From the NCBI GenBank assembly GCA_027079365.1, contig JALWVW010000335.1:1-38363 (forward strand): a stretch of 38,363 nt of DNA, given 5' to 3'. Of the stretch, positions 17,361-35,177 are shown piece after piece. The stretch's first letter is position 1. Each line of letters starts with the position of its first letter. This stretch comes from Campylobacteraceae bacterium. Lineage in GTDB: Bacteria > Campylobacterota > Campylobacteria > Campylobacterales > Sulfurovaceae. The position numbers and the translations under genes were made by a program. The notes under the pieces are model-generated. The model saw only the letters and a program-made list of their open reading frames with translations, ran no database searches and was not told where the DNA came from.

Positions 17361-19094
17361 TTGAAATACCTTATCGAATTTATAGAGAGTGGGGATATAC
17401 GCAAAACAGCGATATACAAACATCTCAAGTGCCATAAAGCAGAAGCGGAGTTGATCCGTTTTGTCTGCCAGGGCTATGTCAAGGGACTTGAAGAGATCTC
17501 TGTACTTGATATGCTCAAGAGCCACTATTCCGACAAAACCTATACCTATCTTAAAAAGCTGCCACTGGTCAAGAAGCTGCTGGATCTGGGCTGGATCACA
17601 CAGATCAGCTTTGGACAGCTTAAGGCACACGAGAGCTCACAACTGGAGCTTCTTAATGCCTCTGTCACTCCTAGTATCGCGCTACTTAGGCTACTGGAAG
17701 AGGGCTCTTTGGAGATACAACTTCCTGATATCAAGCCCTATACAGACCATCTGGAATATCTTCAGGATCAGTTTGATATGGTTGAGCTGCTGCATCGTAT
17801 TGCTACTTTCAAGCAGGGAGCGGCTGACAGCTCACTCAGTATAGGTAGACTCAAGAACAAGTTGACACTTTTGACAACCCGCATTGAAGAGCGCCTTAAA
17901 GTAACGGATACACCTATTGTTGTGGAAGAGTTCTTTGAAGAAAAGGGATTGGATGAAAAGGAGAAGCGAATATTCCTGGCACTGCTCAAGGAGGAGTACA
18001 GTGGCGGGGAAGGACAGTTTCGTGATATGAATGTGCTGATCGAACTGATCAGTTTTGATGAGTATGAGAAAATCAAAAATCGTGCCTTGCTGGAGGAGGG
18101 TTCGCGCCTGATCACCGAAGGAGTGATCGATTATGAAGAGATTCTCAATATGTTTGGCGGTGTGAGCCGCTCTTTCTACCTACAGGATGAGGTGATGCAG
18201 CGGATCATTCATCCCAAGAAGAGCAAAAAGGTTACCAAGCTCAAACTGGATATGCTGGTCAAAGAGCAGGATCTGTTTGAGTACCTCAAGCCTGCTACTA
18301 CCCTAGATGATGTAGTGCTGCATCCCAAGACAAGAGAAACGCTGCAAACGGTTGTCAAGCAGGTTGACAAATCCGTTGCCAAAAAACTACGCGAATGGGG
18401 CATCAAGGGTAAAAGGAAAGGGATCGATGCGAGGATTATCTTTTATGGAGCCGCAGGTACAGGCAAGACCATGACTGCAATGAGTCTTGCCAAGACGCTA
18501 AAGAGACCGATACTCTCTTTTGACTGCTCCAAGATACTCTCCATGTATGTGGGGGAGAGTGAGAAGAATGTCCGGCGCATCTTTGATGATTTCAAAGAGT
18601 TGAGCACCAAAGCCAAAGTGGAGCCTATCTTGCTACTGAATGAGGCAGACCAGTTTCTTAGTTCGCGCAGTGAAGGCGCAGGAAGCTCTGCAGACAAAAT
18701 GCACAACCAGATGCAAAATATCTTTCTGGAGCAGATAGAGCAGTTTGAGGGGATACTGATCGCCACTACAAATCTTTTGGGAAATATTGACAAAGCATTT
18801 TCGCGGCGCTTTAACCATAAGATAGAGTTTAAAAAACCTGGAAAGAAGCAGCGCCTGAGACTCTGGCAGTTTATGCTGCCCGAAAATGCGGATTACGAGG
18901 AGGGCTTTGAGTTGTCACTGTTGACGCGTTATGAGTTGACAGGTGGACAGATCAACTTGATCATCAAGAATACGGCCTACAAAGTAGCCGTCAGAGCAGA
19001 GAGTGTGTTTGCTATGCAGGACTTTGTCGAGGAGATAGAAAAAGAGCTTGGTTCAAGTTTCGATGCTGCCAAGAGCATGGGCTTCAAAATCTAA
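17361..19094 (+). CDS. AAA+ family ATPase
   Basis: 577 aa, TTG start; Walker A GAAGTGKT; Walker B-like PILLLNEADQF; LLGNIDKAFSRRFNHKIEFKKP resembles sensor 1/Arg-finger regions of AAA proteins. Confidence 0.88.
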   Translation: MKYLIEFIESGDIRKTAIYKHLKCHKAEAELIRFVCQGYVKGLEEISVLDMLKSHYSDKTYTYLKKLPLVKKLLDLGWITQISFGQLKAHESSQLELLNASVTPSIALLRLLEEGSLEIQLPDIKPYTDHLEYLQDQFDMVELLHRIATFKQGAADSSLSIGRLKNKLTLLTTRIEERLKVTDTPIVVEEFFEEKGLDEKEKRIFLALLKEEYSGGEGQFRDMNVLIELISFDEYEKIKNRALLEEGSRLITEGVIDYEEILNMFGGVSRSFYLQDEVMQRIIHPKKSKKVTKLKLDMLVKEQDLFEYLKPATTLDDVVLHPKTRETLQTVVKQVDKSVAKKLREWGIKGKRKGIDARIIFYGAAGTGKTMTAMSLAKTLKRPILSFDCSKILSMYVGESEKNVRRIFDDFKELSTKAKVEPILLLNEADQFLSSRSEGAGSSADKMHNQMQNIFLEQIEQFEGILIATTNLLGNIDKAFSRRFNHKIEFKKPGKKQRLRLWQFMLPENADYEEGFELSLLTRYELTGGQINLIIKNTAYKVAVRAESVFAMQDFVEEIEKELGSSFDAAKSMGFKI

Positions 19095-19229: not shown

Positions 19230-19622
19230 ATGATGACTCATGCGATTTCGACACATCCGTATTTCGGTATCTTTTTCCTGCTGGTACTTACCGCAGGTGC
19301 CTTTTACGGTGTTCTGGTACTGCAGCGACTGATCAGTCGCAAGCTCTCCAGACTCGACACAGAAAAGCTGAAAATGTCCCTCTATGAGTGTGGCCCCCGT
19401 GTCAATAAGCAGCCAAATAGTATCTCCATCCAGTTTTATTTGATAGCCCTGCTGTTTATTCTTTTTGATGTGGAGATCGTCTTTATGTTTCCCTGGGCGA
19501 TAGACTTTAAGCTGCTGGGTTGGTTTGGTTTTGTAGAGATGATACTTTTTATATTACTTTTGGCAATTGGATTTGCCTATGCATGGAAGAAAGGAGCACT
19601 TGAATGGCACAGCATCAAGTAA
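19230..19622 (+). CDS. nuoA: NADH-quinone oxidoreductase subunit A
   Basis: ORF track start is 19137; ATG at 19230 follows [51 protein letters not shown]. Confidence 0.95.
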
Positions 19623-20122
19623 ATTACGCCTCGGCAGCAGGACTGCCGGTAGCACTGACATCGGTAGACAAATTGATCAACTGGGGGCGATCCAACTCCC
19701 TCTGGCCTATGACCTATGGACTCGCCTGTTGTGCGATTGAGATGATGGCTACAGGTGCGAGTCGTTATGACTTTGACCGGATGGGGACGATCTTTAGGGC
19801 AAGCCCCAGGCAATCAGATGTCATGATCCTGGCAGGCACCCTTTCCAAAAAGCATGCGGAGTTTACCCGCAGACTCTATGACCAGATGATGGAGCCCAAG
19901 TGGGTGATCTCTATGGGATCCTGTGCCAACACAGGCGGGATGTTCAACACCTATTCGATCGTACAGGGCGTGGACAGGATCGTGCCTGTGGATATTTATC
20001 TCCCAGGCTGTGCCCCCAGACCAGAAACACTCCAATATGCACTGATGATGCTGCAGAAAAAGATTCGTAGAGAATCCGCAGATATGAACAAAAATACCAA
20101 GTCTAACCTGAGGATGCTATAA
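19604..20122 (+). CDS. nuoB: NADH-quinone oxidoreductase subunit B
   Basis: 172 aa; [55 protein letters not shown]. Confidence 0.98.
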
Positions 20123-20910
20123 TGAGAAAATATACCCCCAAAGACAATGTACAGGGCAAAGCATACCATACAGACAGATTTTGGGTTGCACCCTCTGTGC
20201 CGCGTACCGATGCCTCCGAAGATGCACACTTTGCGGCACTGCTGGAAAAGATCAAAGAAAGCATAGCGGTCAAAGATGCCTATATCCAGATTGGGCAGAT
20301 GGTCGTACATATCAACCCTGAAGACAATATCGCCGCGCTTAGACTTGTCAAAGAGGCGTGTGACTATGCCATGTGTACGGAGATCTCTGCAGTGGACTAT
20401 CTGGCACAAGAGGGCGAGTTTGAAGTCTTTTATCAGATGCTCAACCTCAAAAAGGCCAAACGCATCCGTATCGTAACCCGTCTCAAAGAGGGGCAAGCGA
20501 TCGAGAGTGTAGTGCCACTTTTCAACAGTGCCAATTTTGCCGAGAGAGAGATGTATGATATGTTTGGTATCGTGGCAAACAACCACCCCTTTATGAAGCG
20601 TATCTTGATGCCCGATGACTGGGAGGGACACCCGCTGCTCAAAACCTATCCGCTCCAGGGAGATGAAGCGGCATCCTGGTATGAAGTGGACAAGATCTTT
20701 GGCAAAGAGTACCGTGAGATCATCGGTGCAGAAAACAGAGATCCTTCCAAAATAGACCGATACGATACCAAGCGCTTCTCCAGAGTGGGCTATGAGGTGC
20801 CGTTTGATGCGGATATCTCGGAAGGCGAAAAAGAGACACCAATCGAGTACAGCGAAACACTGCTGGTCAATTACAATAAATCATCCAAGCAGTTGGATGA
20901 GCGAAGATAG
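20122..20910 (+). CDS. nuoC: NADH-quinone oxidoreductase subunit C
   Basis: 262 aa; SANFAEREMYDMFGIVANNHPFMKRILMPDDWEGHPLLKTYPL. Confidence 0.96.
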   Translation: MRKYTPKDNVQGKAYHTDRFWVAPSVPRTDASEDAHFAALLEKIKESIAVKDAYIQIGQMVVHINPEDNIAALRLVKEACDYAMCTEISAVDYLAQEGEFEVFYQMLNLKKAKRIRIVTRLKEGQAIESVVPLFNSANFAEREMYDMFGIVANNHPFMKRILMPDDWEGHPLLKTYPLQGDEAASWYEVDKIFGKEYREIIGAENRDPSKIDRYDTKRFSRVGYEVPFDADISEGEKETPIEYSETLLVNYNKSSKQLDERR

Positions 20911-20916
20911 GGGAAG

Positions 20917-22149
20917 ATGATGCAGCAACCTAACAAACTGGTACCATTTTTTGAGAACCTCAATTTTGAGAGAGATGACAATACCATGGTGGTCAACTTT
21001 GGACCCCAGCACCCTTCGGCACATGGACAGCTTCGATTGATGCTGGAGCTCGAAGGCGAGAAAGTGGTCAAGGCCTATCCTGATATCGGCTATCTCCATC
21101 GAGGGATCGAGAAGATGGCAGAAAATATGACCTACAATGAGTTCCTTCCTACTACAGACAGGCTGGACTATATCGCCTCCACAGCCAACAACTATGCCTA
21201 TGCGCATGCGGTAGAAAAGCTCTTGGGTATCGAAGCACCCAGAAGAGCACAGGCGATTCGTACGATGCTCCTGGAACTTAACCGTATCATTTCACACCTC
21301 TTCTTTATCGCAACCCATGCATTGGATGTCGGTGCGATGTCAGTTTTTCTCTATGCGTTCAGAGAGCGTGAGTTTGCTATGGACCTGATGGAGGACTACT
21401 GTGGTGCGAGACTGACACACTCCTCTGTGCGTATCGGTGGTGTACCTTTGGATCTTCCTGAAGGATGGTTAGCGCAGATGATGACCTTCTTGGACAAGAT
21501 GGAGCATGAGCTTGAGCATACCTATGAGGCACTTCTGACAGAGAACCGTATCTGGAAGATGCGTCTGGAGGATGTGGGGGTGATCGATGCAGAAGATGCC
21601 CTCTCCTGGGGTTGCACTGGTCCTATTCTCAGGGGTGCAGGCGTGCAGTATGATGTGCGCAAAGAGGAGCCCTATGAGCTCTATGGTGAGCTGGATTTTG
21701 ATATTCCGGTGAGTGATAGAAATGATGCCTATGGCAGATATATGCTGCATGTAGAGGAGATGCGCCAGTCTGCCAGAATTATCAGACAGGTGATGCCGAT
21801 CTATCGCAAGAGTGAACCGCAGCTGATGGCACATGCGCCTCAGTATCTCTCTGCCCCCAAAGAGGAGATTATGACGCAAAATTATGCACTGATGCAGCAC
21901 TTTGTACTGGTGACACAGGGTATGAGACCTCCCAAGGGAGAGGTGTATGCACCCACAGAGTCCCCCAAGGGAGAACTTGGATTTTATATCAAGTCAGAGG
22001 GTGAGCCCTATGCCTACAGGCTGAAGTGTAGGGCACCAAGCTTCTACCATACGGGTATTTTGCAGAAGGTGCTTGTGGGTACCTATCTGGCAGATGTAGT
22101 CACGATGATCAGTTCATCCAATATCGTCTTTGGCGAAGTAGATCGATAG
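20917..22149 (+). CDS. nuoD: NADH-quinone oxidoreductase subunit D
   Basis: 410 aa; [45 protein letters not shown]-terminal [20 protein letters not shown]. Confidence 0.98.
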
Positions 22150-22158
22150 GAGAAACAG

Positions 22159-22458
22159 ATGAAACGATTTGATTTAAGACACCTGAAAGATGATTTTTAT
22201 GACAGAATGGTTGCGCTGGTTGAGACAGAGACCAAGGTAGGAGAAGTGGCTATCTTTCTCTTTGAGGTGGGCGATTTCACTTCTATTCAGAAGAGTGCAG
22301 ACAGGATCAAGGAGAGTGGACATGAGCTGATGAACTCTCTGAAGTTCAATGAAGTGGACTGGACCATTGTGGTCAAAAGAGCCGACAGAGAGACGCAAAA
22401 AGCACGCCAAACGCATTATCAGGCAGCCAAAGCAGCAGCAGAGGAAGAGGAAAAATAG
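22159..22458 (+). CDS. Small acidic/basic protein in the nuoE position (NuoE replacement, Cj1575c-like by position)
   Basis: 99 aa; contains no cysteine, so it cannot be a canonical 2Fe-2S NuoE; lies between nuoD and the NuoF-like fusion. Confidence 0.75.
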   Translation: MKRFDLRHLKDDFYDRMVALVETETKVGEVAIFLFEVGDFTSIQKSADRIKESGHELMNSLKFNEVDWTIVVKRADRETQKARQTHYQAAKAAAEEEEK

Positions 22459-24470
22459 TGTCTGCAGTAGTTTTTTCGACATGGCAGGGCGAGTTTGTCG
22501 ACAATCGTCATGCCGAAGGCGATGCTGTTGCTCAGACGAGCTTCAAGTTACCAGTTTTGTATACAGCGGAGACGAAATCCAAAGCATTTATTGGCTGGGA
22601 TGGTGTGGCGATCTTTGATAGGGATATTGATGCGGTGAGGCTGGCTACAGAGTATGCTGCTCAGTACCAAGAATACTCCGAAGCCTGTGGTCGATGTGCT
22701 CCGGGAAGATGGGGAGGGCGCATTCTCTATGATATGTTGGATAAGATCGCCAGAGGCGAAGGAAGCTATGCAGATGTAGAGCACCTTCGTGAGGTGAGTC
22801 AGACGATGATGCTGACCTCAAAGTGTGAGATAGGTCGTACCGTTCCTAAGCCGATACTGGATCTACTAGAGCACTACAAGGAGCAGTTTGACAGCTGTAT
22901 CCTAGAGCAGAAGCCCTCCAGGCACTATCAGAGCGATATTGGTTATATTGCCAAGATCACAGCTCCCTGTATGGATGTCTGTCCGGCACATGTGGATATT
23001 CCTGCCTATATCGAGGGCGTCAGAGATATGCAGTTTAGTGAGTCACTGGCAGCGACCAGGCAGACCATGCCATTGGCACATACCTGTGGCAGAGTCTGTC
23101 CCCACCCCTGTGAGGATGCCTGTCGTAGAACCAATTTGGATGAGCCGATCTCTATTATGGAGCTTAAGCGACTGGGCGCAGACTATGAGGCAGACCATGC
23201 GCTCCCTTGGCAACACCCACACGCTCCCAAGCCTCCAAGGAATGATGGCAAAAAGGTAGCGATCGTCGGTGCAGGTCCTGCTGGACTGACAGCAGCTTAT
23301 TATCTGGGACTTGAAGGTATTCGGGTAGATATCTTTGAAGAGCTGCCTGTCAATGGGGGTGAAGTGGCAGTCGGTGTGCCAGAGTACCGTATGCCCATAG
23401 ATAAATACAACAAAGATATTGATTTGGTACTGGAGCTCCCCACTGTTTCCATACAGAATAATCATCGTGTGACTGCCGACAGGCTCAAAGAGCTCGATGC
23501 AGCGTATGACGCTGTTCTTTTGGGCTTTGGCGCACGACTCTCTAAGAAGGTCAGAGCAGACAACGAAAATCCTGATATGGGTGGCTATTGGGGAGCGATT
23601 TCAATGCTGGACAAGGTCAATCTCTGGCACAAGTACCAGATAGGCAGCCCTGCGAGCAATGAACTTAAGGGAAAGACAGTCGTTTGTGTAGGTGGGGGAT
23701 TTACCTCCATGGATGTCGTGCGTTGTGCGATCAGAGAAGGGGCCAAGAAGGTGACTATGCTCTACAGAAGAGACGAGAAGACCATTATTCGCAATACGAC
23801 TTATGAAGAGTACCATGAGGCAGTAGAAGAGGGGGTCGAGTTTATCTTCTACTCCTCTATCCGGGAGATTATAGATGATGGAAAACAGATTACCAAGTTG
23901 ATCGCAGATACCTTTGAGCTGGTACCTGATCCTGATGGCGGCAGACCACAGCTTCTCAAAGTAGAAGGAGGAGAGTTTGAGCTGGAGTGCGACTATCTTA
24001 TCCCCGCTGTTTCCCAGTCCTGCGATATGCAGCTCATCCCCGAAGAGTGGGATCTGAAGCTAACCTCTTGGGGTACGCTATTGACCAACGGCAAAGACTA
24101 TATGACCTCCAAAGAAGGGCTGTTTGCCGCAGGTGACTGCGAGTATGGTCCGATGACGATCGTCAATGCGGTGGGGCAGGCCAAAAGAGCGGCCTCTGTG
24201 ATCAGCAGATACCTCTATAACGGAGGAAAATGTACATTGACAGATGACGAGATCATGGAGGATCATCTCAACCAACTGAGGGTCTATAACAAAAATGAGA
24301 AGATCACAGGCTGGATGCCGGGACTGCCCAGAGAAGAGAGCGAGAAACTTAGTGTAGATGCACGCAAAACAAACAACAGAGAGGTCAACCTCGGCTTTAC
24401 GGGCGAAGAGGCCAGTGCAGAAGCAGAACGCTGTATGCGCTGCTACTATATCTCCATGGTTGCGGTATAG
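22458..24470 (+). CDS. NuoF-position fusion: N3-like Fe-S domain plus GltD-type FAD/NAD(P)H oxidoreductase
   Basis: 670 aa; ACGRCAPGRWGGRILYDMLDKIARGEG resembles the NuoF C-terminal N3 domain; then CMDVCPAHVDIPAYI, CGRVCPHPCEDACRR, VAIVGAGPAGLTAAYYLG and VVCVGGGFTSMDVVR, as in GltD. Confidence 0.88.
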   Translation: MSAVVFSTWQGEFVDNRHAEGDAVAQTSFKLPVLYTAETKSKAFIGWDGVAIFDRDIDAVRLATEYAAQYQEYSEACGRCAPGRWGGRILYDMLDKIARGEGSYADVEHLREVSQTMMLTSKCEIGRTVPKPILDLLEHYKEQFDSCILEQKPSRHYQSDIGYIAKITAPCMDVCPAHVDIPAYIEGVRDMQFSESLAATRQTMPLAHTCGRVCPHPCEDACRRTNLDEPISIMELKRLGADYEADHALPWQHPHAPKPPRNDGKKVAIVGAGPAGLTAAYYLGLEGIRVDIFEELPVNGGEVAVGVPEYRMPIDKYNKDIDLVLELPTVSIQNNHRVTADRLKELDAAYDAVLLGFGARLSKKVRADNENPDMGGYWGAISMLDKVNLWHKYQIGSPASNELKGKTVVCVGGGFTSMDVVRCAIREGAKKVTMLYRRDEKTIIRNTTYEEYHEAVEEGVEFIFYSSIREIIDDGKQITKLIADTFELVPDPDGGRPQLLKVEGGEFELECDYLIPAVSQSCDMQLIPEEWDLKLTSWGTLLTNGKDYMTSKEGLFAAGDCEYGPMTIVNAVGQAKRAASVISRYLYNGGKCTLTDDEIMEDHLNQLRVYNKNEKITGWMPGLPREESEKLSVDARKTNNREVNLGFTGEEASAEAERCMRCYYISMVAV

Positions 24471-24476
24471 GAGGGC

Positions 24477-26729
24477 ATGATGAGCAAAAGAGAAACAATG
24501 CCTTCCCTTGTGACAGTGACCATTGACGGGAAAGTGTGCCAAGGGCAACGGGGCCAAACCATCCTGGAGATCGCCAGAGCGCATGATATCTATATTCCTA
24601 CTATGTGCTACCTGACTAAAGTGATGCCAATCGCATCCTGTCGGATGTGTGTGGTGGCCGTAGAGGGTGTGGAGGGCATGATACTTTCTTGCCAAGAGAG
24701 AGCCGTTGAAGGTGCGGTGATCCATACCCAGAATGAGGCACTCTATCGTGAGCGACAGAATATCATGAAGCTCTATGGGGTCAACCATCCTCTGGAGTGC
24801 GGAGTCTGTGACAAAAGTGGTGAATGTGACCTGCAGAACAAAACACTGGAATTCCATGTTGACCAACAGCCTTTTGCCGCAAAAGATCAGCATAGACCTG
24901 TGCAGGATTGGGGATTTGTCTCCTATGATCCCTCTTTGTGTATCATGTGTGAGAAGTGTGTACGGGTCTCTAATGAAATTACAGGAAACGGTGCGTTGCA
25001 AATAGCCTCAGGTGGGTACAAATCCACCATTGTCAACACCAAAATGGACAAAAGCGATATGTCTTTGGGCGAATCTGCGGCAGTCTGTCCTGTGGGTGCA
25101 CTGGTTGCTACGGATTTCAAGTACAGCAGCAATGCCTGGGAGCTGGAGAAGATTCCGGCAAGCTGTAGCCATTGCAGTGCAGCCTGCCAGCTCTACTACG
25201 AGGTCAAAAATGAAAAGATCTATCGTGTGACCAACGCCTATGAGTTTGCTTCTCTGTGCGGGAGAGGAAGGTTTGATTTTGATTTTGCCAATAGTGGCGT
25301 AGTGAAAGATCAAGAAGCTTTTGATAAAGCAGTCAAGGCACTCTCGGAAGCAGATAGTGTGATCTTTGATTCCAGGATCACCAATGAAGAGGCACTGATT
25401 CTGCAAAAACTCAAAGAGAAACTGGGTTTCAGGCTGGTCAATCATGAGGCTAGAGCCTATCAGAAATTTACTGAGGCCTATAGCAGCATCTCTGGAAAAA
25501 CACTTTACAATGGTACTTTGAAGCAGGTAGCAGAAGCACGCGCTATCATCGTGCTTGGTACGCGACTCCATGATGACAATCCTCAGGTGGATTACCACAT
25601 CACCATGGCGAGCAAGCGACACAAGGCCAGAGTGGTCTATATGCATCCTATGGAAGATGGCAGGATGCAGGAGCGGGTGACACAGTTTGTCAAGTATGAG
25701 GTAGGCACAGAGGATGGTGTGGCTGCACTGCTTGCGCATACTCTGCTGACAGAAGCAGTACTTCCTGCCTCTATCAGAGAAGTGCTGGATGATCTGGATA
25801 TTGGAAACCTGAGTGCCGAAAGCAATATCGGGGAGGAGGAGTTGACTGATATCGCTGTGTCAATGCAGGGCAAAGCCCATCGTGTACTGATCGTGGGAAG
25901 TGATCTCTATGCACACCCCCGTGCCGCACAGATCGCCAAGCTGTTAGCACTGCTGGAGCGTTATGCCGGATTCAGTGTCATGCTGGTGCCGCCTTCAACC
26001 AATACACTGGGCGTCTCCCTGATCTGTACGCTGGATGATAGGACAGAGGGTAAAACCGTAGGCTACCACGCCAAGGCAGATTTTGTACTGAGCAGTAGCC
26101 AAGAGGGTGATCTGGATATGCCGGCACTCAATCAGCAGGAGGGCACTTTCACCCCTCTGGATAAATGTGTGGTGCCTACCCATGTGGCACTGCCCTACGG
26201 GGGGTTTGTGCTGAATGATCTTGCCTCTGCATTAGGTGTGAGGCAGCCTTATACGATAGCGTATACGGCAATGCTTCCGACAGACAAAGGATACCGGACG
26301 GAGCATTTTGATGCATTGCCTGACCACTATGATGCCACAGGGGAAGCGCACAGAGGATATCTTTTGCATGAGCAGACCTGTGCATCTCATCTCGAGATCG
26401 AAGAGGTTGAGGAGCTGGATGGATATGATGGTGTCGTCGTGTATCGCTGCGACAGTCAGGAGATACTTTCTGCCTCTATCCGACCGACAGAAGAAATGCA
26501 GTATATGCCCCTGAAAGGTTCACAGCAGTTTGCAACAGCAGCAAAACTAAAGGACGGAGAGGTGATAGAGTTTATGATTGATGGTGTCACAATGAAACGA
26601 GTGTTTAGGATTGATACATCTATGAAAGGAACAGTAGCACTAAATCCCCAGTTTGACATGGGATTAAGTACTCCTTTGCTATCCTCTTATAGATTTAGCA
26701 GGTTAAAGTTCCAAAGAGTGGAGAGCTGA
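24477..26729 (+). CDS. nuoG: NADH-quinone oxidoreductase subunit G, paralog 1
   Basis: 750 aa; N1b (CYL..SCRMC..SC), N5 (HPLECGVCDKSGEC), N4 (CIMCEKC...CPVGAL), N7 (CSHCSAAC...LCGRGRF). Confidence 0.93.
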   Translation: MMSKRETMPSLVTVTIDGKVCQGQRGQTILEIARAHDIYIPTMCYLTKVMPIASCRMCVVAVEGVEGMILSCQERAVEGAVIHTQNEALYRERQNIMKLYGVNHPLECGVCDKSGECDLQNKTLEFHVDQQPFAAKDQHRPVQDWGFVSYDPSLCIMCEKCVRVSNEITGNGALQIASGGYKSTIVNTKMDKSDMSLGESAAVCPVGALVATDFKYSSNAWELEKIPASCSHCSAACQLYYEVKNEKIYRVTNAYEFASLCGRGRFDFDFANSGVVKDQEAFDKAVKALSEADSVIFDSRITNEEALILQKLKEKLGFRLVNHEARAYQKFTEAYSSISGKTLYNGTLKQVAEARAIIVLGTRLHDDNPQVDYHITMASKRHKARVVYMHPMEDGRMQERVTQFVKYEVGTEDGVAALLAHTLLTEAVLPASIREVLDDLDIGNLSAESNIGEEELTDIAVSMQGKAHRVLIVGSDLYAHPRAAQIAKLLALLERYAGFSVMLVPPSTNTLGVSLICTLDDRTEGKTVGYHAKADFVLSSSQEGDLDMPALNQQEGTFTPLDKCVVPTHVALPYGGFVLNDLASALGVRQPYTIAYTAMLPTDKGYRTEHFDALPDHYDATGEAHRGYLLHEQTCASHLEIEEVEELDGYDGVVVYRCDSQEILSASIRPTEEMQYMPLKGSQQFATAAKLKDGEVIEFMIDGVTMKRVFRIDTSMKGTVALNPQFDMGLSTPLLSSYRFSRLKFQRVES
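26109..26146 (+). repeat. 38-bp exact repeat, copy 1 (in nuoG paralog 1)
   Basis: GATCTGGATATGCCGGCACTCAATCAGCAGGAGGGCAC, identical to 28579-28616. Confidence 0.97.
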
Positions 26730-26730
26730 T

Positions 26731-29190
26731 ATGAGCAGTATTACAATTACGATAGATGGTCAGGCGTGTCAGGCTAAAGAGGGTGAGTTTATTCTCAATA
26801 TTGCCAGAGCCAATGGGATATTTATCCCTGCAATTTGCTACTTGACGCGGTGTTCACCGACATTGGCATGCCGTATCTGTCTGGTTGAAGCAGACGGTAA
26901 GCGGGTCTACTCCTGTAATGCAAAAGCCAAAGACGGGATGAATATCGTTACAAAGAACGAAGAGATACTTGAAGAACGCAGGGCGATCATGGAAGTCTAT
27001 GATGTCAATCATCCTCTGCAGTGCGGTGTCTGTGACCAGAGCGGGGAGTGTGAACTGCAGAACTATACCTTGGAGCTTGGTGTTGATTCGCAGTCTTTTG
27101 CTATTCCCGATACCAAGAGAGAAGCAACCACCTGGAGCTCAGTGCTGCACTATGATCCGGGTCTGTGTATCGTGTGCGAACGATGTGTAACCGTCTGTAA
27201 AGATATGGTGGGTGATGCGGCACTCAGTACGGGTCCTCGTGGCGGAGAGAAGCTGAGCAAAGAGCTCAAGGAGATAGTCCCTAAAGATGCCTATGCCATG
27301 TGGAACAAGCTTCAGAAATCAGTCATCGTGCCCAGTAACGGTACAGGTGAGACCAACTGTAGCGACTGTGGTGAGTGTATCGCTGTCTGTCCTGTGGGTG
27401 CACTGGTCAGCAGGGATTTTCAGTATACCTCCAATGCCTGGGATCTGACACGCATCCCGGCAGTGTCTGCCCACTCCAGTGACGGGTTTCAGATCTACTA
27501 TGAAGTGAAGCCTACGTCTATCGCAGACAGAACACCCAAGATATACAGAGTAACTAATGAGTGGCACTATACTTCACTCGATGGTGCGGCTAGATTTGCC
27601 TATGATTTTGAAAATGGCAGCGCTCAAAAAGATCCTGTTGCTTTTGCCAAGGCAGTGGAGGCCTTGAAAAAGGCAGAGACCATACGCTTCAATGCGACGA
27701 TTACCAATGAAGAGGCATTGATGCTCCAGACACTCAAAGAGAAGCTGGGACTCAAGCTTTATAATCCTGAAGTGGGTGCTTACCAAAAGTTTCTTGCTTC
27801 CTATGCCAAGACAAGCGGTAACAGCCTCTACAGTGGGGATACGGACAAGATCATGAAGGAGAGTGATTTTGTGATTGCGGTGGGTACGCACCTCAGAAAT
27901 GAAGCACCAGGCAGCAGGCATGCCTTTAACAATGTACAGAAAATGAACAAAGGTGCCGGGCTCTATTTCCATCCTGTAGGAGATGCCCTTGTCCCTACCT
28001 TTGGTAAATCTGTCAGCCAGTTTGCGTATAGTCCTGGTCTGGAAGAGGCGGCACTCTATCTGATTCTTGATCTGTTTGCAGACAAGGAGAAACTCCCCAA
28101 AGAGGTTGCAGCATATCTAGAGGATTTCCACAGTACAGAGACAAAGACTGTCCAAGAGAAAGTCATGGTCGATGTGGTGGAGACTGTGGTGGACGAGGAG
28201 ACAGGTGAGAGCAAAGAGGTGACCAAAAAAGTACCTCAGATGGTGGAGAAAGAGATCGAAGTGGTGCGTAATGGACTGGTAGAACTTCTGGGTAAAAAGA
28301 GCGATACTTTCGCTGCAGAATTTGAGAAGATGCTCAAGAAAAAAGAGCGTTTCTCTCTGATGGTGGGAGAGGATCTCTATTATCACGAGAAGGCGGAAAA
28401 TCTTGCCAAACTGGTAGCACTTATCGAAAAAGCATGTGACTTTGATCTGGTGATCATCCCACCAAAATCCAATGCCTTAGGTGTCGCATTGATCTGTGCA
28501 CTGGATGACCAGGCCTCTGGCTACACGGTTGGGTACAATGAAAATGGTGACTTTAGACTCTCTGCACTGGGTGACGGAGATCTGGATATGCCGGCACTCA
28601 ATCAGCAGGAGGGCACACTGACCACACTTGGCAAAAGGATCGTACCCACCAACGCAGCACTGCCGTATCATGGATATGAGCTCAATGATCTTGTGCGAGA
28701 GCTTGTAGGTGCCCCTGCCGAGACGATTGACTGGACAGCAAAACTCCCCAAAAAGAGAGGCTACAAAGCAGTGGCATTTGATGCCCTCACCAATGCCTAC
28801 AGCAATGATGGTGTAGATCACAGAGGGTATCTTCTTGATACTGAGAGTAGAGAGGAGAAGCTTCCTGAAGTAGAAACTCCTGCAGTCTACAGTGCACTTG
28901 AGGGTGAGATCGCAGTGCGTCTCAACCCTGGCAGACAGTTCAGTGATTTTACAGACAAGGCACATCAGATATTTGAGCCCTTTGCGCTCTATACGAGTCC
29001 AGAGAAAGCAGCAGAGCTAGGCGCACGCGTTGAGGTGGTATTCAAAAACAGGGTGTTGAAACTGGATGTTATCGCCGATGACAAGATGGAGGGAGATATC
29101 GTCTGTGTGCCTGACTTTAAAAGCCGTGAAGATATCTATGGGCTCTTCGGCGATCGCCGCTATCAAACAGTAACACTAAGAAAGGGTTAG
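26731..29190 (+). CDS. nuoG: NADH-quinone oxidoreductase subunit G, paralog 2
   Basis: 819 aa; N1b and N5 motifs; CIVCERCVTVC...CSDCGECIAVCPVGAL (two 4Fe-4S clusters); N7 ligands absent (VSAHSSDGF, LDGAARF). Confidence 0.92.
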   Translation: MSSITITIDGQACQAKEGEFILNIARANGIFIPAICYLTRCSPTLACRICLVEADGKRVYSCNAKAKDGMNIVTKNEEILEERRAIMEVYDVNHPLQCGVCDQSGECELQNYTLELGVDSQSFAIPDTKREATTWSSVLHYDPGLCIVCERCVTVCKDMVGDAALSTGPRGGEKLSKELKEIVPKDAYAMWNKLQKSVIVPSNGTGETNCSDCGECIAVCPVGALVSRDFQYTSNAWDLTRIPAVSAHSSDGFQIYYEVKPTSIADRTPKIYRVTNEWHYTSLDGAARFAYDFENGSAQKDPVAFAKAVEALKKAETIRFNATITNEEALMLQTLKEKLGLKLYNPEVGAYQKFLASYAKTSGNSLYSGDTDKIMKESDFVIAVGTHLRNEAPGSRHAFNNVQKMNKGAGLYFHPVGDALVPTFGKSVSQFAYSPGLEEAALYLILDLFADKEKLPKEVAAYLEDFHSTETKTVQEKVMVDVVETVVDEETGESKEVTKKVPQMVEKEIEVVRNGLVELLGKKSDTFAAEFEKMLKKKERFSLMVGEDLYYHEKAENLAKLVALIEKACDFDLVIIPPKSNALGVALICALDDQASGYTVGYNENGDFRLSALGDGDLDMPALNQQEGTLTTLGKRIVPTNAALPYHGYELNDLVRELVGAPAETIDWTAKLPKKRGYKAVAFDALTNAYSNDGVDHRGYLLDTESREEKLPEVETPAVYSALEGEIAVRLNPGRQFSDFTDKAHQIFEPFALYTSPEKAAELGARVEVVFKNRVLKLDVIADDKMEGDIVCVPDFKSREDIYGLFGDRRYQTVTLRKG
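28579..28616 (+). repeat. 38-bp exact repeat, copy 2 (in nuoG paralog 2)
   Basis: Identical to 26109-26146. Confidence 0.97.
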
Positions 29191-29191
29191 T

Positions 29192-30226
29192 ATGGAAACA
29201 ACAATGATACATGAAGTGACCTGGATCGGCGCAGCGGTCAAAGCATTGATTGCTTTGCTGCTCGTTTCAGCGGTCGCAGGATTTGGTACCTATATAGAGA
29301 GGAAGGTGTTGGCATGGATGCAGCGACGACCCGGCCCTGCACATGTAGGGCCTTTCGGGCTGTTGCAACTGGCAGCGGATGGTATCAAACTCTTTACCAA
29401 AGAGGACTTTATCCCACAGTTTTCCAACCGCTTGATCTTCTCAATTGCACCTGTGATCACTGCAGGAACAGCCTTTATTGCGCTGGCAGCAGTGCCGCTT
29501 TTCCCTGACTTTACCTTTCCTTCGTGGATACCGCTGCTAGGAGGCGTATTTGTCCCTTCTATTGCATCTGATGTCAATATAGGGATACTCTTTATCCTCG
29601 CAGCGATGGCGGCAGGACTGTATGGTCCTCTGCTTGCAGGCATGTCTCAGCAAAACAAATGGGGGATTATCGGTGCAGCGAGAACAGCTGTACAGTTTCT
29701 CAGCTACGAGGTTGTCACCGGGCTTTCGCTGTTGGCACCTATTATGCTAGTCAGTTCCCTTTCTTTGGTGGACTTCAATAACTATCAGGCAGGCGGTATT
29801 GGCTCATGGATGCTTTGGCAGCAGCCTTTGGCATTTATTCTCTTTTTGATCGCAGGATTTGCAGAGACCAACCGTACACCCTTTGACCTGCTTGAGCATG
29901 AAGCAGAGATTGTTTCGGGCTTTGTGACGGAGTACAGTGGACTTCGCTGGGGACTCTTCTTTGTGGGTGAGTATGCCAACATGATCACGATCGGTGTACT
30001 TGCATCGGTGGTCTTTTGTGGTGGCTACAGTGACCTCTGGTTGATTCCGGGTTGGTTGATGATGGGGCTCAAGGTGAGCTTCTTCTTCTTTTTGATGTTG
30101 TGGGTAAGGGCTTCCTGGCCGCATATCAGACCTGACCAGTTGATGTGGTTGAGCTGGAAAGTATTGATGCCGCTGGCAGTTGTCAATGTAGTGATCACCG
30201 GTATCGTCATGATGGCGATGGCATAA
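29192..30226 (+). CDS. nuoH: NADH-quinone oxidoreductase subunit H
   Basis: 344 aa; YIERKVLAWMQRRPGPAHVGPFGLLQLAADGIKLFTKED; AETNRTPFDLLEHEAEIVSGFVTEYSG. Confidence 0.98.
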   Translation: METTMIHEVTWIGAAVKALIALLLVSAVAGFGTYIERKVLAWMQRRPGPAHVGPFGLLQLAADGIKLFTKEDFIPQFSNRLIFSIAPVITAGTAFIALAAVPLFPDFTFPSWIPLLGGVFVPSIASDVNIGILFILAAMAAGLYGPLLAGMSQQNKWGIIGAARTAVQFLSYEVVTGLSLLAPIMLVSSLSLVDFNNYQAGGIGSWMLWQQPLAFILFLIAGFAETNRTPFDLLEHEAEIVSGFVTEYSGLRWGLFFVGEYANMITIGVLASVVFCGGYSDLWLIPGWLMMGLKVSFFFFLMLWVRASWPHIRPDQLMWLSWKVLMPLAVVNVVITGIVMMAMA

Positions 30227-30235
30227 GGAGTAGCA

Positions 30236-30859
30236 ATGAGCTTAGAACAATTTAAAAATAGAAATGTAGGACAGCAGCAGTACCGTATGCTGGATCTAGG
30301 AAAGACGCCTGAGACAGGTTGGGGAAGATTCAAGCAGGTACTGGGCAGATCACTTAAGGTGGAGCTGCTGATAGGGTTGGGTGTAACTTTTGGTGTGATG
30401 ATCCGTACCCTCTTTCGCGGGGAGACCCATACGATCCGTTATCCTTTTGAGAAGATACCTATCTCCCGTAGATACCGCGCTATCCACGAGATGAAACGAC
30501 TGCTGGAGAGCGGACACTATCGCTGTATTGGATGTGGACTTTGTGAAAAGATCTGTATCTCCAACTGTATTACGATGGACACGCGCTATGATGAGAATCA
30601 GCGTAAAGAGGTTAGTGAATACAGCATCAATTTTGGTCGATGTATCTTCTGTGGGTATTGTGCAGAGGTCTGTCCGGAGCTTGCGATCGTACATGGAGAC
30701 AGATATGAGACAGCCTCCGAGCAGCGTGCGAGCTTCTCGCTCTTTGAGGACATGCTGACACCAATCGACAAGCTGAAGTCTCAACAAGAGTATCCAGGGT
30801 TTGGGGCAGTCTCCCCCAATGCGGATGAGAATATCAAAAAAACGCCATTAGCGTATTAA
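30236..30859 (+). CDS. nuoI: NADH-quinone oxidoreductase subunit I
   Basis: 207 aa; CIGCGLCEKICISNC and CIFCGYCAEVCPELAI. Confidence 0.97.
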   Translation: MSLEQFKNRNVGQQQYRMLDLGKTPETGWGRFKQVLGRSLKVELLIGLGVTFGVMIRTLFRGETHTIRYPFEKIPISRRYRAIHEMKRLLESGHYRCIGCGLCEKICISNCITMDTRYDENQRKEVSEYSINFGRCIFCGYCAEVCPELAIVHGDRYETASEQRASFSLFEDMLTPIDKLKSQQEYPGFGAVSPNADENIKKTPLAY

Positions 30860-30869
30860 GGGAGTATAG

Positions 30870-31427
30870 ATGATAACCATTGCTTTTTATTTCTTTGCTG
30901 TACTCATTACACTCCTCTTTTTGGTGACCGTAATGAGTAAAAACGTGCTGTATGCTATGACCTCTCTTGCAGCAGGTATGGTATTGATATCAGGACTCTT
31001 CTTTATCTTGGGTGCTGATTTCCTTGGTGTGGTGCAGCTGATCGTCTATGTGGGTGCCGTCATGGCACTGTACTCTTTTGCCATGATGTTCTTTGATGTC
31101 AATAAAGATGTCAAAGAGAAAAATGGCAGCGCTGCTACGGTATTTCTCTTAGGTGGTGCTATCGCATTGATGCTGGTGCTGGTCTTTTCTGCACCGATGA
31201 TCGGACAGGGGGCGGCTTCGCTATATCCTCAAGTGGCAGGCGCTACCAATCCTCAAGCAGTAGGTCTGGTACTGTTTACCAAGTATCTTGTGCCGTTTGA
31301 GGTGGCCGCAGTGATGTTGCTGGTAGCCATGATCGCTGGTATCATACTGGCAGGGAAGAAAATGGATCTGAGTCTCTCGACAACAGAAGAAGAGATCTTG
31401 GATGAGACACAAGGAGGTGACAAATGA
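30870..31427 (+). CDS. nuoJ: NADH-quinone oxidoreductase subunit J
   Basis: 185 aa; GADFLGVVQLIVYVGAVMALYSFAMMFF. Confidence 0.97.
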   Translation: MITIAFYFFAVLITLLFLVTVMSKNVLYAMTSLAAGMVLISGLFFILGADFLGVVQLIVYVGAVMALYSFAMMFFDVNKDVKEKNGSAATVFLLGGAIALMLVLVFSAPMIGQGAASLYPQVAGATNPQAVGLVLFTKYLVPFEVAAVMLLVAMIAGIILAGKKMDLSLSTTEEEILDETQGGDK

Positions 31428-31726
31428 TAGGGCTTAGCCATTACCTGATACTTTCAGGTATCCTGTTTTCGATAGGACTGATAGGGGTGCTAAGAAGAAA
31501 GAATCTGCTGATGCTCTTTTTTGCGACAGAGATTATGCTCAATGCGGCCAATATCGCTTTTGCTGCCATCTCCAGTCACTATCATGATATGGCAGGGCAG
31601 ATGTTTGCCTTCTTTGTCATAGCTGTAGCTGCAAGTGAAGTGGCCGTAGGACTTGGTTTGCTGGTGATACTGTACAAAAAGTATGGCACGCTTGACCTTG
31701 ATATGTATACAGTGATGAGGGGGTAA
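31424..31726 (+). CDS. nuoK: NADH-quinone oxidoreductase subunit K
   Basis: 100 aa; GVLRRKNLLMLFFATEIMLNAANIAF; ATGA overlap with nuoJ. Confidence 0.97.
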   Translation: MIGLSHYLILSGILFSIGLIGVLRRKNLLMLFFATEIMLNAANIAFAAISSHYHDMAGQMFAFFVIAVAASEVAVGLGLLVILYKKYGTLDLDMYTVMRG

Positions 31727-31728
31727 GG

Positions 31729-33651
31729 ATGGAAAATTTAGTCTATATCGCGCTCTTCGCACCGCTGGTTGGCTCGCTGTTTGCTGCACTGTTTGGGATG
31801 CAAAAGAAAAATGCTATTACCGGTATCGTGACATCTATGTTGCTTTTTATCTCTTTTGTCGCCTCTGCGATCCTTTTCAATCATGTGATGACCGTAGGGC
31901 CAGTTCATGTGAGAATGATGGACTGGATCATGGCAGGAGATATGCTGATCCCCTTTGGGTTCTTGGTTGATCAGGTTTCGGTAACGATGATGACAGTAGT
32001 GACACTGGTCTCTACTGTGGTACATATCTATTCCAACGGTTACATGGATCATGATAAGAGCTTCAATCGCTTTTTCTCCTATCTTTCTGCTTTCGTCTTC
32101 TCCATGATGGTGCTGGTCATGAGTGATAACTTTTTGGGGCTCTTTATCGGATGGGAAGGCGTGGGTGTCTGCTCATGGCTCCTGATCGGATTTTGGTATC
32201 ACAAAGAAGATGTCAGTAGAGAAGTTAACCCTTCGATCTCTCCTTCTTGGGCAGCCAATGAAGCATTTATCATGAACCGTATCGCTGACCTTGGCATGCT
32301 CATAGGTATCTTTATTCTGTACTGGAATATTGGCTCTTTGCAGTACGATGTTGTTTTTGCAGCATTGCCAAATCTCAGCGACGGCATATTGGTTGCGGCT
32401 GCGGTGGCACTCTTCATCGGCGCGATGGGTAAATCAGCACAGTTTCCTCTGCATACCTGGCTAACCGATGCGATGGAGGGTCCTACACCCGTCTCCGCAC
32501 TGATCCATGCTGCCACGATGGTGACAGCCGGTGTCTTCTTGGTGATTCGTGCCAATCCACTCTATAGTATGGAAGCAGTACACTGGGTGAGCTACTTTAT
32601 CGCCAGCCTGGGTACTTTTGTGGCGATTTTCGCTGCCTCCATGGCGCTGGTTAATCGTGATCTCAAGCGCATCATTGCCTTCTCCACACTGTCTCAGCTA
32701 GGGTATATGTTTGCCGCTGCCGGACTGGGTGCCTACTGGATCGCACTCTTCCATCTTGCAGCGCATGCCTTCTTCAAAGCACTGCTTTTCTTGGGTGCAG
32801 GTAATGTCATGCATGCGATGGATGGTGAGCTGGATATTTTCAAGATGGGAGGACTCAAAAAAGTGATGCGTTGGACCTATCTCTATATGGGACTTGCCTC
32901 TTTGGCACTGTCGGGGATTGGTATCGCCGGAATTGGTTTTGCCGGATACTTCTCCAAAGATGCGATCATAGAGACAGCCTTCAATGAGCATACCTATATT
33001 CTCTGGGTGATTCTGGTGGTGACTGCTGGTCTGACAGCATTTTACAGCTTCAGACAGGTGTTTTTGACCTTCCATGGCAATGAACGCTACCATGAGATTG
33101 GTGCCCATCCGCATGAGATGTATACCTATGTATTGATCGGTATGTCACCTCTTGCGATTCTTGCCGTGATTGCCGGATTCTTTCAGGACTGGTTTGAGCA
33201 CTTTGTCACAGCTTTGTTGCCGGAGTATCACATGAGTGAGCATACCCACCATCTCTCTTGGATATTAGGACTGATAGTGATTGCCTTTGCTGTAGGAGGC
33301 ATCGTGTTGGCCTATGTCAAATACAATAGAGGGCTTAAGCGCAACGAAAAGCTTGAGCATTCCTTTGTCTATAAACTCTTGGCAAATCAGTACTATATAC
33401 CAATATTGTATGAAAAGATCTTTTCCCAGCCTTATGCTGCACTTTCCAAGTTCTCATGGGCTGTACTGGATCAAAAAGTGGTTGATGCTACCGTGGACGG
33501 TATCGGCCATATCATCAAAAGCACAGGGGACAATACACGCAAGATCCAAACAGGAAACCTCTCAGACTACCTTAGATGGATGGCAGGTGGAGCCCTATTG
33601 CTTGTCGTGATTGCCTTTGTGGCGTTTAAACTCAGCCAAGGAGCTAACTAA
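31729..33651 (+). CDS. nuoL: NADH-quinone oxidoreductase subunit L
   Basis: 640 aa; GWEGVGVCSWLLIGFW; KSAQFPLHTWLTDAMEGPTPVSALIHAATMVTAGVFL. Confidence 0.98.
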   Translation: MENLVYIALFAPLVGSLFAALFGMQKKNAITGIVTSMLLFISFVASAILFNHVMTVGPVHVRMMDWIMAGDMLIPFGFLVDQVSVTMMTVVTLVSTVVHIYSNGYMDHDKSFNRFFSYLSAFVFSMMVLVMSDNFLGLFIGWEGVGVCSWLLIGFWYHKEDVSREVNPSISPSWAANEAFIMNRIADLGMLIGIFILYWNIGSLQYDVVFAALPNLSDGILVAAAVALFIGAMGKSAQFPLHTWLTDAMEGPTPVSALIHAATMVTAGVFLVIRANPLYSMEAVHWVSYFIASLGTFVAIFAASMALVNRDLKRIIAFSTLSQLGYMFAAAGLGAYWIALFHLAAHAFFKALLFLGAGNVMHAMDGELDIFKMGGLKKVMRWTYLYMGLASLALSGIGIAGIGFAGYFSKDAIIETAFNEHTYILWVILVVTAGLTAFYSFRQVFLTFHGNERYHEIGAHPHEMYTYVLIGMSPLAILAVIAGFFQDWFEHFVTALLPEYHMSEHTHHLSWILGLIVIAFAVGGIVLAYVKYNRGLKRNEKLEHSFVYKLLANQYYIPILYEKIFSQPYAALSKFSWAVLDQKVVDATVDGIGHIIKSTGDNTRKIQTGNLSDYLRWMAGGALLLVVIAFVAFKLSQGAN

Positions 33652-35177
33652 TGGATGGTATTTTAACAGTTTTACTTTTCTTTCCGCTACTTGCGGGACT
33701 GCTTGGCTTTGTGGTCAACAAGGACAGTATCAGAGCCTATGGTATAGCGGTGGCCTCTATAGAGTTTCTGCTCTCACTCTGGCTTTGGATGTCTTTTGAT
33801 GTCAGTCATGCAGGATTCCAGTTTGTAGAGAACATTCCGCTGGTTTCTGATTTTGGTATCAGTTACTATGTGGGTGTGGATGGGATCAGCCTCTTCATTA
33901 TTATTATGGCAACATTGATGACGCTGATAGGTATTGTTGCGCTCAATATTAAAAAAGATGTCAAAAATATGATTATCACGCTTCTCTTTTTGGAAGTGGC
34001 GATGGTCGGTGTCTTTATCTCTTTGGATGCGATTATCTTCTATCTTTTCTGGGAGTTTTCCCTGGTACCAATGCTCTATATTATTGGTGCCTGGGGCGGA
34101 GAGAGACGACTGTACGCAGCGGTCAAATTCTTTCTCTACACCTTTGCCGGCTCATTAATCATGCTAATAGGCATGCTGTATGTGGCTTATGTGTACCATT
34201 CCGTCTCTGGCTCTTGGAGCTTTGCGATCACGGACTGGTATGCGTTGATCCTGCCGCTAGATGTTGAGAAGTGGTTGTTCTGGGCATTCTTCCTTGGGTT
34301 TGCAATCAAGGTACCGATGTTCCCATTCCATACCTGGCTGCCCTATGCGCATGGTCAGGCACCGACAGTGGGTTCAGTCATCTTGGCAGCAGTGCTGCTC
34401 AAGATGGGTACCTATGGTTTTGTGAGATTCTCATTGCCGATGTTCCCTGATGCTTCCGTGCTCTATATTACGCCTGTAGCGATTCTAGCGATCATTATGA
34501 TCATCTATACGGCGATGGTCGCCTATGCGCAGGAGGACATGAAGCAGACGATCGCCTACTCCTCTGTATCGCATATGGGTGTGATCATTATCGGTACGTT
34601 TGCCATGAACGCAGAAGGAATCACTGGATCGATCTTCTTGATGCTTTCGCATGGTATCGTCTCGGGCGCACTCTTCCTCTTGGTAGGATCGATCTATGAC
34701 CGACGCCATACCAAGCTGATGAGTGAGTTTGGAGGGCTGGCTTCTGTGATGCCAAAGTATGCCGTGATCTACGGTATTATGCTGATGGCTTCTGTGGGTC
34801 TGCCACTGACAATTGGATTTGTAGGAGAGTATCTCTCTCTGGCAGGATTCTATAAGATATCACCAGTCATGACAGCCCTTGCAGGCACCTCGATCATCTT
34901 GGGAGCCGTGTATATGCTGAACCTCTACAAGCGTTCCTTCTTTGGCCCTGTGACCAATGAAGCAAATAAAAAACTGAATGACCTAGATGGCAAAGAGTTG
35001 GCAGCACTGGTGCCGCTGGTACTGATCGTTATCTGGCTGGGAGTCTATCCCAAGCCTGTATTGGTACCGATTGACAATTCGGTCAGGGCATTGACCAGCT
35101 TTATGCATGAAAAGGCACAGACAAAAACGGCAAAAGCCACCATACTGGTAAGCAAAAAAAATAAGGAGATGAAGTAA
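33651..35177 (+). CDS. nuoM: NADH-quinone oxidoreductase subunit M
   Basis: 508 aa; FWEFSLVPMLYIIGAWGGERR; KVPMFPFHTWLPYAHGQAPTVGSVILAAVLLKMGTYG. Confidence 0.98.
   Translation: MDGILTVLLFFPLLAGLLGFVVNKDSIRAYGIAVASIEFLLSLWLWMSFDVSHAGFQFVENIPLVSDFGISYYVGVDGISLFIIIMATLMTLIGIVALNIKKDVKNMIITLLFLEVAMVGVFISLDAIIFYLFWEFSLVPMLYIIGAWGGERRLYAAVKFFLYTFAGSLIMLIGMLYVAYVYHSVSGSWSFAITDWYALILPLDVEKWLFWAFFLGFAIKVPMFPFHTWLPYAHGQAPTVGSVILAAVLLKMGTYGFVRFSLPMFPDASVLYITPVAILAIIMIIYTAMVAYAQEDMKQTIAYSSVSHMGVIIIGTFAMNAEGITGSIFLMLSHGIVSGALFLLVGSIYDRRHTKLMSEFGGLASVMPKYAVIYGIMLMASVGLPLTIGFVGEYLSLAGFYKISPVMTALAGTSIILGAVYMLNLYKRSFFGPVTNEANKKLNDLDGKELAALVPLVLIVIWLGVYPKPVLVPIDNSVRALTSFMHEKAQTKTAKATILVSKKNKEMK

Follow-up and report, generated by a model that had tools for sequence, protein, structure and literature searches.

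Complex I is usually held to take its electrons from NADH by way of NuoEF or, where NuoEF is missing, from ferredoxin, flavodoxin or F420H2. For the Campylobacterota, a 2019 review of respiration places nuoXY in the position of nuoEF, with a likely coupling to flavodoxin or ferredoxin and with A. butzleri as the exception (PMC6682613); a genome survey of 2025 describes C. jejuni as having no functional N-module (PMC12361115). The genes that occupy this position are Cj1575c/Cj1574c in C. jejuni and HP1264/HP1265 in H. pylori.

Also relevant here are proteins with a GltD-like flavin module. In NfnB the distal cluster is held by Cys39, 42, 47 and 100, the proximal cluster by Cys51, 90, 96 and Glu117, and a YRR motif holds the 2′-phosphate of NADP; the same motif is characteristic of DsrL-2, which depends strictly on NADP(H) (PMC7596348). 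In StnC, electrons from NADPH run along clusters to NuoG- and NuoF-like proteins (StnB being the NuoF-like one), the FAD is reported as non-bifurcating and Lys170 stands at the FAD-side cluster (PMC10482914). Among the [FeFe]-hydrogenases, HydDB group A2 is labelled ‘glutamate synthase-linked (putative)’, its role being given there as undetermined (PMC5037454).

The window, that is, the whole stretch of 38,363 nucleotides that was analyzed, comes from the metagenome-derived genome of a sulfur-oxidising, vent-type, Sulfurovum-like bacterium of the Campylobacterota. Its ORFs include a complex I operon in the order nuoA-D, nuoX, a fusion gene, two nuoG genes, nuoH and on to at least nuoM. The order is that of the C. 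jejuni and H. pylori operons, which also share orthologues of nuoX and NuoG2 with the window; the NuoXY operons, however, are without the fusion and without the Fe-S half of NuoG1. In this bacterium and in many of its relatives the usual NADH entry subunit of complex I is replaced by a fused protein seemingly built for electron exchange with NADPH. We consider it probable that the fusion gene encodes the electron-input/output subunit of Campylobacterota complex I, that this subunit is NADP(H)-linked, and that in autotrophs it probably works in reverse, toward NADPH. The features on which the argument draws are as follows (residue numbers are those of the encoded proteins).

19604..22149, + strand: nuoB, nuoC and nuoD, connecting-module genes, upstream (ORFs, Pfam)
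22159..22458, + strand: nuoX, 99 aa, FMN-binding-protein family PF16514 (Pfam E=8.5e-39), homologue of H. pylori HP1264 (PDB 2LXR; phmmer E=3.9e-25 to 2lxr)
22458..24470, + strand: N3-GltD fusion, 670 aa, GTG start, NuoF position (ORF, Pfam, curated models, AlphaFold, fold search)
22515..22913, + strand: NuoF/HydB-derived part of the fusion, residues 20-152, end of SLBB and N3 helical domain (phmmer to HydB/NfnB/NuoF chains, best E=6.9e-19)
22686..22826, + strand: N3-type Fe-S site C77-x2-C80-x2-G83...C123, with Gly where the third Cys would stand (pattern C, C, G, C in each of 108 distinct homologues)
22959..23195, + strand: Fer4_20 domain (Pfam) with two [4Fe-4S] sites, C171, C175, C214, C218, C222 and Lys237 (codon 23166-23168), mapped on NfnB Cys47, 51, 90, 96, 100 and Glu117 and on StnC Lys170; invariant
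23268..23309, + strand: FAD-binding Rossmann motif GAGPAGLTAAYYLG, residues 271-284 (Pfam, sequence)
23691..23771, + strand: NADP-binding Rossmann motif GGGFTSMD...LYRR, residues 412-438, with YRR at 436-438 (invariant in 108/108)
24429..24443, + strand: C-terminal RCMRC, residues 658-662, counterpart in permuted position of the first two distal [4Fe-4S] ligands, aligned to the NfnB Cys39/Cys42 region and to the RCxxC past the Rossmann domains of StnC/NfnA (107/108, the other an alignment gap)
24477..26729, + strand: nuoG1, 750 aa, ligand sets for N1b, N5, N4 and N7 (Pfam, Cys conservation; nearest solved chains NuoG/HydA)
26731..29190, + strand: nuoG2, 819 aa, orthologue of the single Campylobacter/Helicobacter NuoG (PRK08493); N1b, N5 and two [4Fe-4S] sites, N7 lost (curated models, Cys conservation)
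29192..35177, + strand: nuoH, I, J, K, L and M, downstream in the same operon (ORFs, gene order)

A fusion gene in the position of nuoF

The start of the fusion gene overlaps the stop of nuoX by 1 base and nuoG1 begins 6 bases past its stop. Pfam divides the protein into NADH_4Fe-4S (the N3 region of NuoF, residues 67-145), Fer4_20 (the double-cluster domain of GltD and DPD, 168-246) and Pyr_redox_2 (265-575). The Complex1_51K/FMN domain (PF01512) has no Pfam match in the 670 residues, in agreement with a sequence-only reading of the window according to which the operon has no FMN/NADH-binding NuoF. That reading also had the SLBB region missing together with the FMN region, but residues ∼20-66 align with the stretch preceding N3 in HydB, NfnB and NuoF; by this alignment NuoF has lost no more than its FMN domain and the greater part of SLBB. 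Curated GltD-like models match residues 157-662 and NuoF models residues 29-146, all with scores far under their cut-offs; the protein is accordingly a NuoF/GltD chimera. The proposed outline, an N3-like region and then a GltD-like part with two groups of Cys, stands, except that there is a third group, the RCMRC near the C-terminus.

The gene is no chance ORF, given that it has 108 distinct full-length homologues, 49–96% identical to the window's protein (the nearest being the one at 96%), and that 142 of the 670 positions are invariant among them. The AlphaFold model is of fair confidence, with a pLDDT of 83 and a pTM of 0.82; its best PDB fold matches are NfnA of NfnABC and StnC, and these are also the best matches by sequence.

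Wherever flanking sequence is present, nuoX lies directly upstream of the fusion (129/129 loci) and nuoG directly downstream (107/107), these counts covering all fetched loci, in some cases with the same genome represented twice. The fusion therefore has a fixed place in the operon, beside the nuoE-position gene and nuoG, as does canonical NuoF. It occurs in one copy per genome in 81 of 298 Campylobacterota genomes and in 30 of 59 genera; nuoX is present in 242 of the 298. Immediately 5′ of the operon in the window is a gene for an AAA-type ATPase (577 aa, 17361-19094).

A search of the rest of the genome, which is 93% complete, returned neither NuoE (PF01257) nor FMN-type NuoF (PF01512), although it included positive controls; a hidden nuoE/nuoF, the genomic form of one condition named beforehand as overturning the proposal, was thus not observed in it. 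Among the Campylobacterota genomes, 59 of 298 carry a PF01512 protein; of the 81 with the fusion, 66 have none. The general statement that epsilonproteobacteria have no canonical nuoEF is hence too broad for the whole phylum. With no nuoE or nuoF found in the genome and the fusion beside nuo genes in every testable locus, the proposal of a chimeric FAD/NAD(P) subunit in place of NuoEF is sustained, and membership of the fusion in complex I is strongly supported by genomics.

Cofactor sites and related modules

The fusion shares with canonical NuoF (TIGR01959) its operon position and the N3 helical domain, but the FMN domain is gone, an FAD/NADP module has been added and the N3 site has three Cys rather than four. 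Canonical NuoF has CGxCxPC...C, and the solved-structure relatives that we compared residue by residue have CGxCxxCR...C, with Cys at the third position; the fusion has CGRCAPGR...C. The N3 domain recognized in the sequence-only reading is present, then, although without the CGxCxPCR...C motif. Because the third Cys is Gly (Gly83) in all 108 distinct homologues, the site has three Cys; beside its last Cys stands Glu124, as invariant as Gly83 (108/108). Such a site might fail to bind a functional cluster and so interrupt the wire there, a point against the mechanism proposed below.

The GltD half has the two Rossmann motifs reported before, the FAD motif at 271-284 and GGGFTSMDVVR at 412-422. 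With two Rossmann domains, FAD and NADP motifs and two [4Fe-4S] ligand sets (seven Cys and Lys237) it is a module of the GltD/NfnB/StnC type. From the alignment, the predicted ligands of the distal cluster are C659, C662, C171 and C222, and those of the proximal cluster C175, C214 and C218 with Lys237. Both sets, Lys237, Arg311 and YRR are conserved in the 108 distinct homologues, with one alignment gap at C659/C662. The Glu ligand of the proximal cluster in NfnB (Glu117) is absent from the fusion, where Lys237 is found in 108/108. These motifs point to NADP(H) over NAD(H), and the StnC-like Lys points to linear electron transfer over bifurcation of the NfnB type. Homology and motifs are likewise the ground on which we infer the FAD, its non-bifurcating character, the NADP(H) specificity and the order of the path. 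Four further residues of the NADP and FAD domains (Cys410, Cys423, Cys561 and Phe415) are invariant in the 108 homologues and absent from the aligned NfnB and StnC sequences; they may signal an altered nucleotide chemistry, which would count against the explanation preferred here.

The closest counterparts, StnC of the Stn transhydrogenase (PDB 8OH5) and NfnA of NfnABC (9BOV, 9N5U), resemble the fusion in their GltD-type FAD/NADPH module, in the RCxxC past the Rossmann domains and in working with NuoG- and NuoF-like partners; K170 of StnC is a Lys at the FAD-proximal cluster, as is Lys237. In StnC and NfnA, however, the module is set within a chain that resembles NuoG, and FMN is retained by the NuoF-like partner, whereas in the fusion it is joined to an N3 domain whose NuoF has otherwise disappeared. 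Unlike them, too, the fusion belongs to a quinone-linked proton pump. DsrL type 2 has a GltD-like FAD module with YRR, uses NADP(H) and is tied to a dissimilatory enzyme, all of which recall the fusion; its partner, however, is sulfite reductase, it has a C-terminal ferredoxin domain and it has no N3 domain.

The same joining of an N3 domain upstream of a permuted GltD, as in an [FeFe] group A2-type module, was met once outside the Campylobacterota. A tblastn search of plasmid records returned a protein of Collinsella aerofaciens (WP_195568673.1, 610 aa, L177:5857-9494) that is 31% identical to the fusion over 603 aligned positions, has the same domain order and ends in RCLRC (RCxRC), but has a four-Cys N3. 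Its gene directly adjoins a group A [FeFe]-hydrogenase with a NuoG-like N terminus; in the window the partner genes are nuoG1 and nuoG2, with no adjacent [FeFe]-hydrogenase. The Collinsella pair fits the HydDB description of group A2, and the locus probably encodes an NADPH-linked hydrogenase of this poorly known group. The NuoG-like start of the hydrogenase suggests that N3-GltD fusions are an input module common to proteins of the NuoG kind; on the basis of this one outside example the change from Cys to Gly appears to be specific to the complex I version. A scan of viral contigs added nothing.

Two operon architectures and the origin of NuoY

Campylobacterota complex I operons with nuoX (PF16514), the window's included, come in two forms. 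Fusion operons run nuoX, fusion, nuoG1 (∼750 aa), nuoG2 (∼825 aa), nuoH; the others run nuoX, nuoY (∼265 aa), nuoG, nuoH. In the window nuoX is followed by the fusion and a full-length nuoG1 and not by nuoY.

Profile comparison aligns NuoY with the molybdopterin-like C-terminal half of NuoG1 (hhalign E 6.6e-62, against 7.8e-22 for NuoG2), and the match persists when NuoY is taken from Helicobacter alone (1.1e-41) or from Campylobacter alone (3.1e-27). One of the loci, L152, has a NuoX identical to HP1264 at 73 of 74 positions, from which we take it to be H. pylori or nearly so and its NuoY to be HP1265 by position. By these profile matches NuoY (Cj1574c/HP1265; L147, L152, L121 and others) is a reduced NuoG1 that has kept the C-terminal molybdopterin-like domain and lost the Fe-S half. 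Cj1575c/Cj1574c had been put forward as standing in for the missing subunits. Of the two, Cj1575c/HP1264 is indeed the counterpart of the 99-aa gene, but Cj1574c/HP1265 is a NuoG1 remnant; the fusion as counterpart of Cj1574c/NuoY was rejected, given that NuoY aligns to the C-terminal half of NuoG1 and nests with NuoG1.

In a quick tree of all columns with NuoG2 as outgroup, NuoY falls among NuoG1 sequences on one branch, the Helicobacter branches being long. In a shorter, more careful tree, which leaves out Helicobacter and Campylobacter NuoY, a Sulfurovaceae NuoY (L143) lies inside Sulfurovaceae NuoG1 (100/99) and Arcobacteraceae NuoY nests with the NuoG1 of its own family; one common clade for NuoY is rejected (p-AU 0.012). 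The rejection makes repeated reduction likely, though the quick tree gave one branch: NuoG1 was probably reduced to NuoY more than once, the exact number being blurred by long branches and by possible lateral transfer (L079, L144). The NuoD tree shows at least six switches between the two architectures over well-supported branches. Both the nesting of NuoY and these switches suggest that the fusion type is probably the older, NuoXY having probably arisen repeatedly through loss of the fusion and of the redox half of NuoG1.

Some loci carry mixed signals. One Sulfurovaceae genome (G208) has two nuoX-nuoY operons (L143 and L144), one of them Sulfurospirillaceae-like, and L079 combines a Sulfurospirillaceae-like NuoD with a Sulfurovaceae-like NuoG1; at these three loci either lateral transfer or chimeric contigs may be responsible.

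Electron flow and competing explanations

If the subunit works as we propose, NADP(H) would bind to the second Rossmann domain and exchange hydride with FAD. Single electrons would then pass from FAD to the proximal [4Fe-4S] cluster (three Cys and Lys237), to the distal [4Fe-4S] cluster (C171, C222, C659, C662) and on to the unusual N3-type cluster with three Cys in the N-terminal domain derived from NuoF, whence the Fe-S wire of NuoG1 would lead to NuoG2, NuoI, NuoB and menaquinone. NuoX, which is related to HP1264, an FMN-binding protein, would be part of the same complex. In NuoG2 the four Cys of N7 are missing in the window (residues 246-284) and in ∼30% of the fusion-bearing relatives (∼70% keep them); NuoG1 retains its N7 set. 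A continuous path from the fusion through both NuoG proteins to NuoI and NuoB is possible by ligand content, because the other ligand sets are kept in NuoG1 and NuoG2.

The direction of flow is suggested by physiology only. The genome of the window encodes ATP-citrate lyase and so probably has the rTCA cycle; neither the PntB transhydrogenase nor flavodoxin (PF00258) has a match in it. Given these three findings, reverse transport to NADP+ would be the most economical role, and in rTCA-cycle autotrophs the net flow is likely to be reversed, quinol and proton-motive force yielding NADPH. The same genome also holds an NfnSL-like pair (L002, G000 contig C350), a possible alternative link between NADH, ferredoxin and NADPH and another possible source of NADPH, which weighs against the proposed role.

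Other explanations deserve consideration. Ferredoxin (or flavodoxin) could be the true partner, entering at NuoX/NuoG2, with the fusion as an extra outlet to NADP+ in a ferredoxin/quinone/NADP junction. The NuoXY genomes, reported flavodoxin or ferredoxin users, do retain nuoX and NuoG2 where no fusion is present, and NuoX is found in every fusion operon that has upstream sequence. Flavodoxin, however, was not found in 36 of the 81 fusion genomes, compared with 21 of 217 others (present in 45 and 196, respectively), counts that ignore kinship and do not cover ferredoxin; as with the missing flavodoxin of the window's genome, this tells against such a junction, which we think unlikely. A bifurcating or confurcating FAD, coupling NADPH, a low-potential carrier and quinone as in NfnB, strikes us as quite improbable: the GltD domain is a homologue of NfnB and retains, as Arg311, the Arg on the FAD side (NfnB R201), but this Arg does not discriminate, since StnC has it also, while the proximal position has the Lys of non-bifurcating StnC throughout the homologues, and the nuo loci examined contain no gene for an NfnA-type partner, the neighbors of the fusion being nuoX and nuoG1.

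That the gene encodes the small subunit of a glutamate synthase, or an NADPH oxidoreductase, which acts on its own and merely happens to sit in the nuo operon we regard as barely credible. Its best-scoring curated models are GltD-like, as such an enzyme would have it, yet the scores are far below GltD-type cut-offs and the protein bears a NuoF-type N3 domain. A true gltB-gltD pair is encoded elsewhere in the genome (L003), and no testable locus has the fusion away from nuo genes. Synteny and the separate GltBD thus reject the stand-alone GltD that the sequence-only reading had listed as fatal to its proposal.

If NADP(H) exchange is indeed the role of the fusion, a direct route from quinol to NADPH, driven by proton-motive force, would be open to many vent autotrophs, which would answer how Campylobacterota with the rTCA cycle can obtain NADPH; it would also account for NuoY, a hitherto unassigned subunit of Campylobacter and Helicobacter, and complex I and hydrogenases would draw on one common input module. 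A more encompassing version, which we offer tentatively, is that of an NADP(H)-specific complex I in which the FMN/NADH module has given way to an N3-GltD module shared with [FeFe]-hydrogenases, wired through a second NuoG with the three-Cys N3 as a possible redox gate, and serving mainly to make NADPH by reverse transport, the NuoXY complex I being its repeatedly reduced derivative. In the open literature we found no description of the fusion, of tandem NuoG with a fusion, of a three-Cys N3 or of the origin of NuoY (earlier mention in subscription papers is possible), and no biochemistry of the fusion protein.

The fusion also occurs in members of the Helicobacteraceae, among them probably Wolinella; it is therefore not confined to lithoautotrophs, a further consideration against the preferred explanation. 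In some Helicobacteraceae (L119:4812-7595, L168) it reaches 900–970 aa, with a low-complexity insert of ∼250 aa between the N3 and GltD parts.
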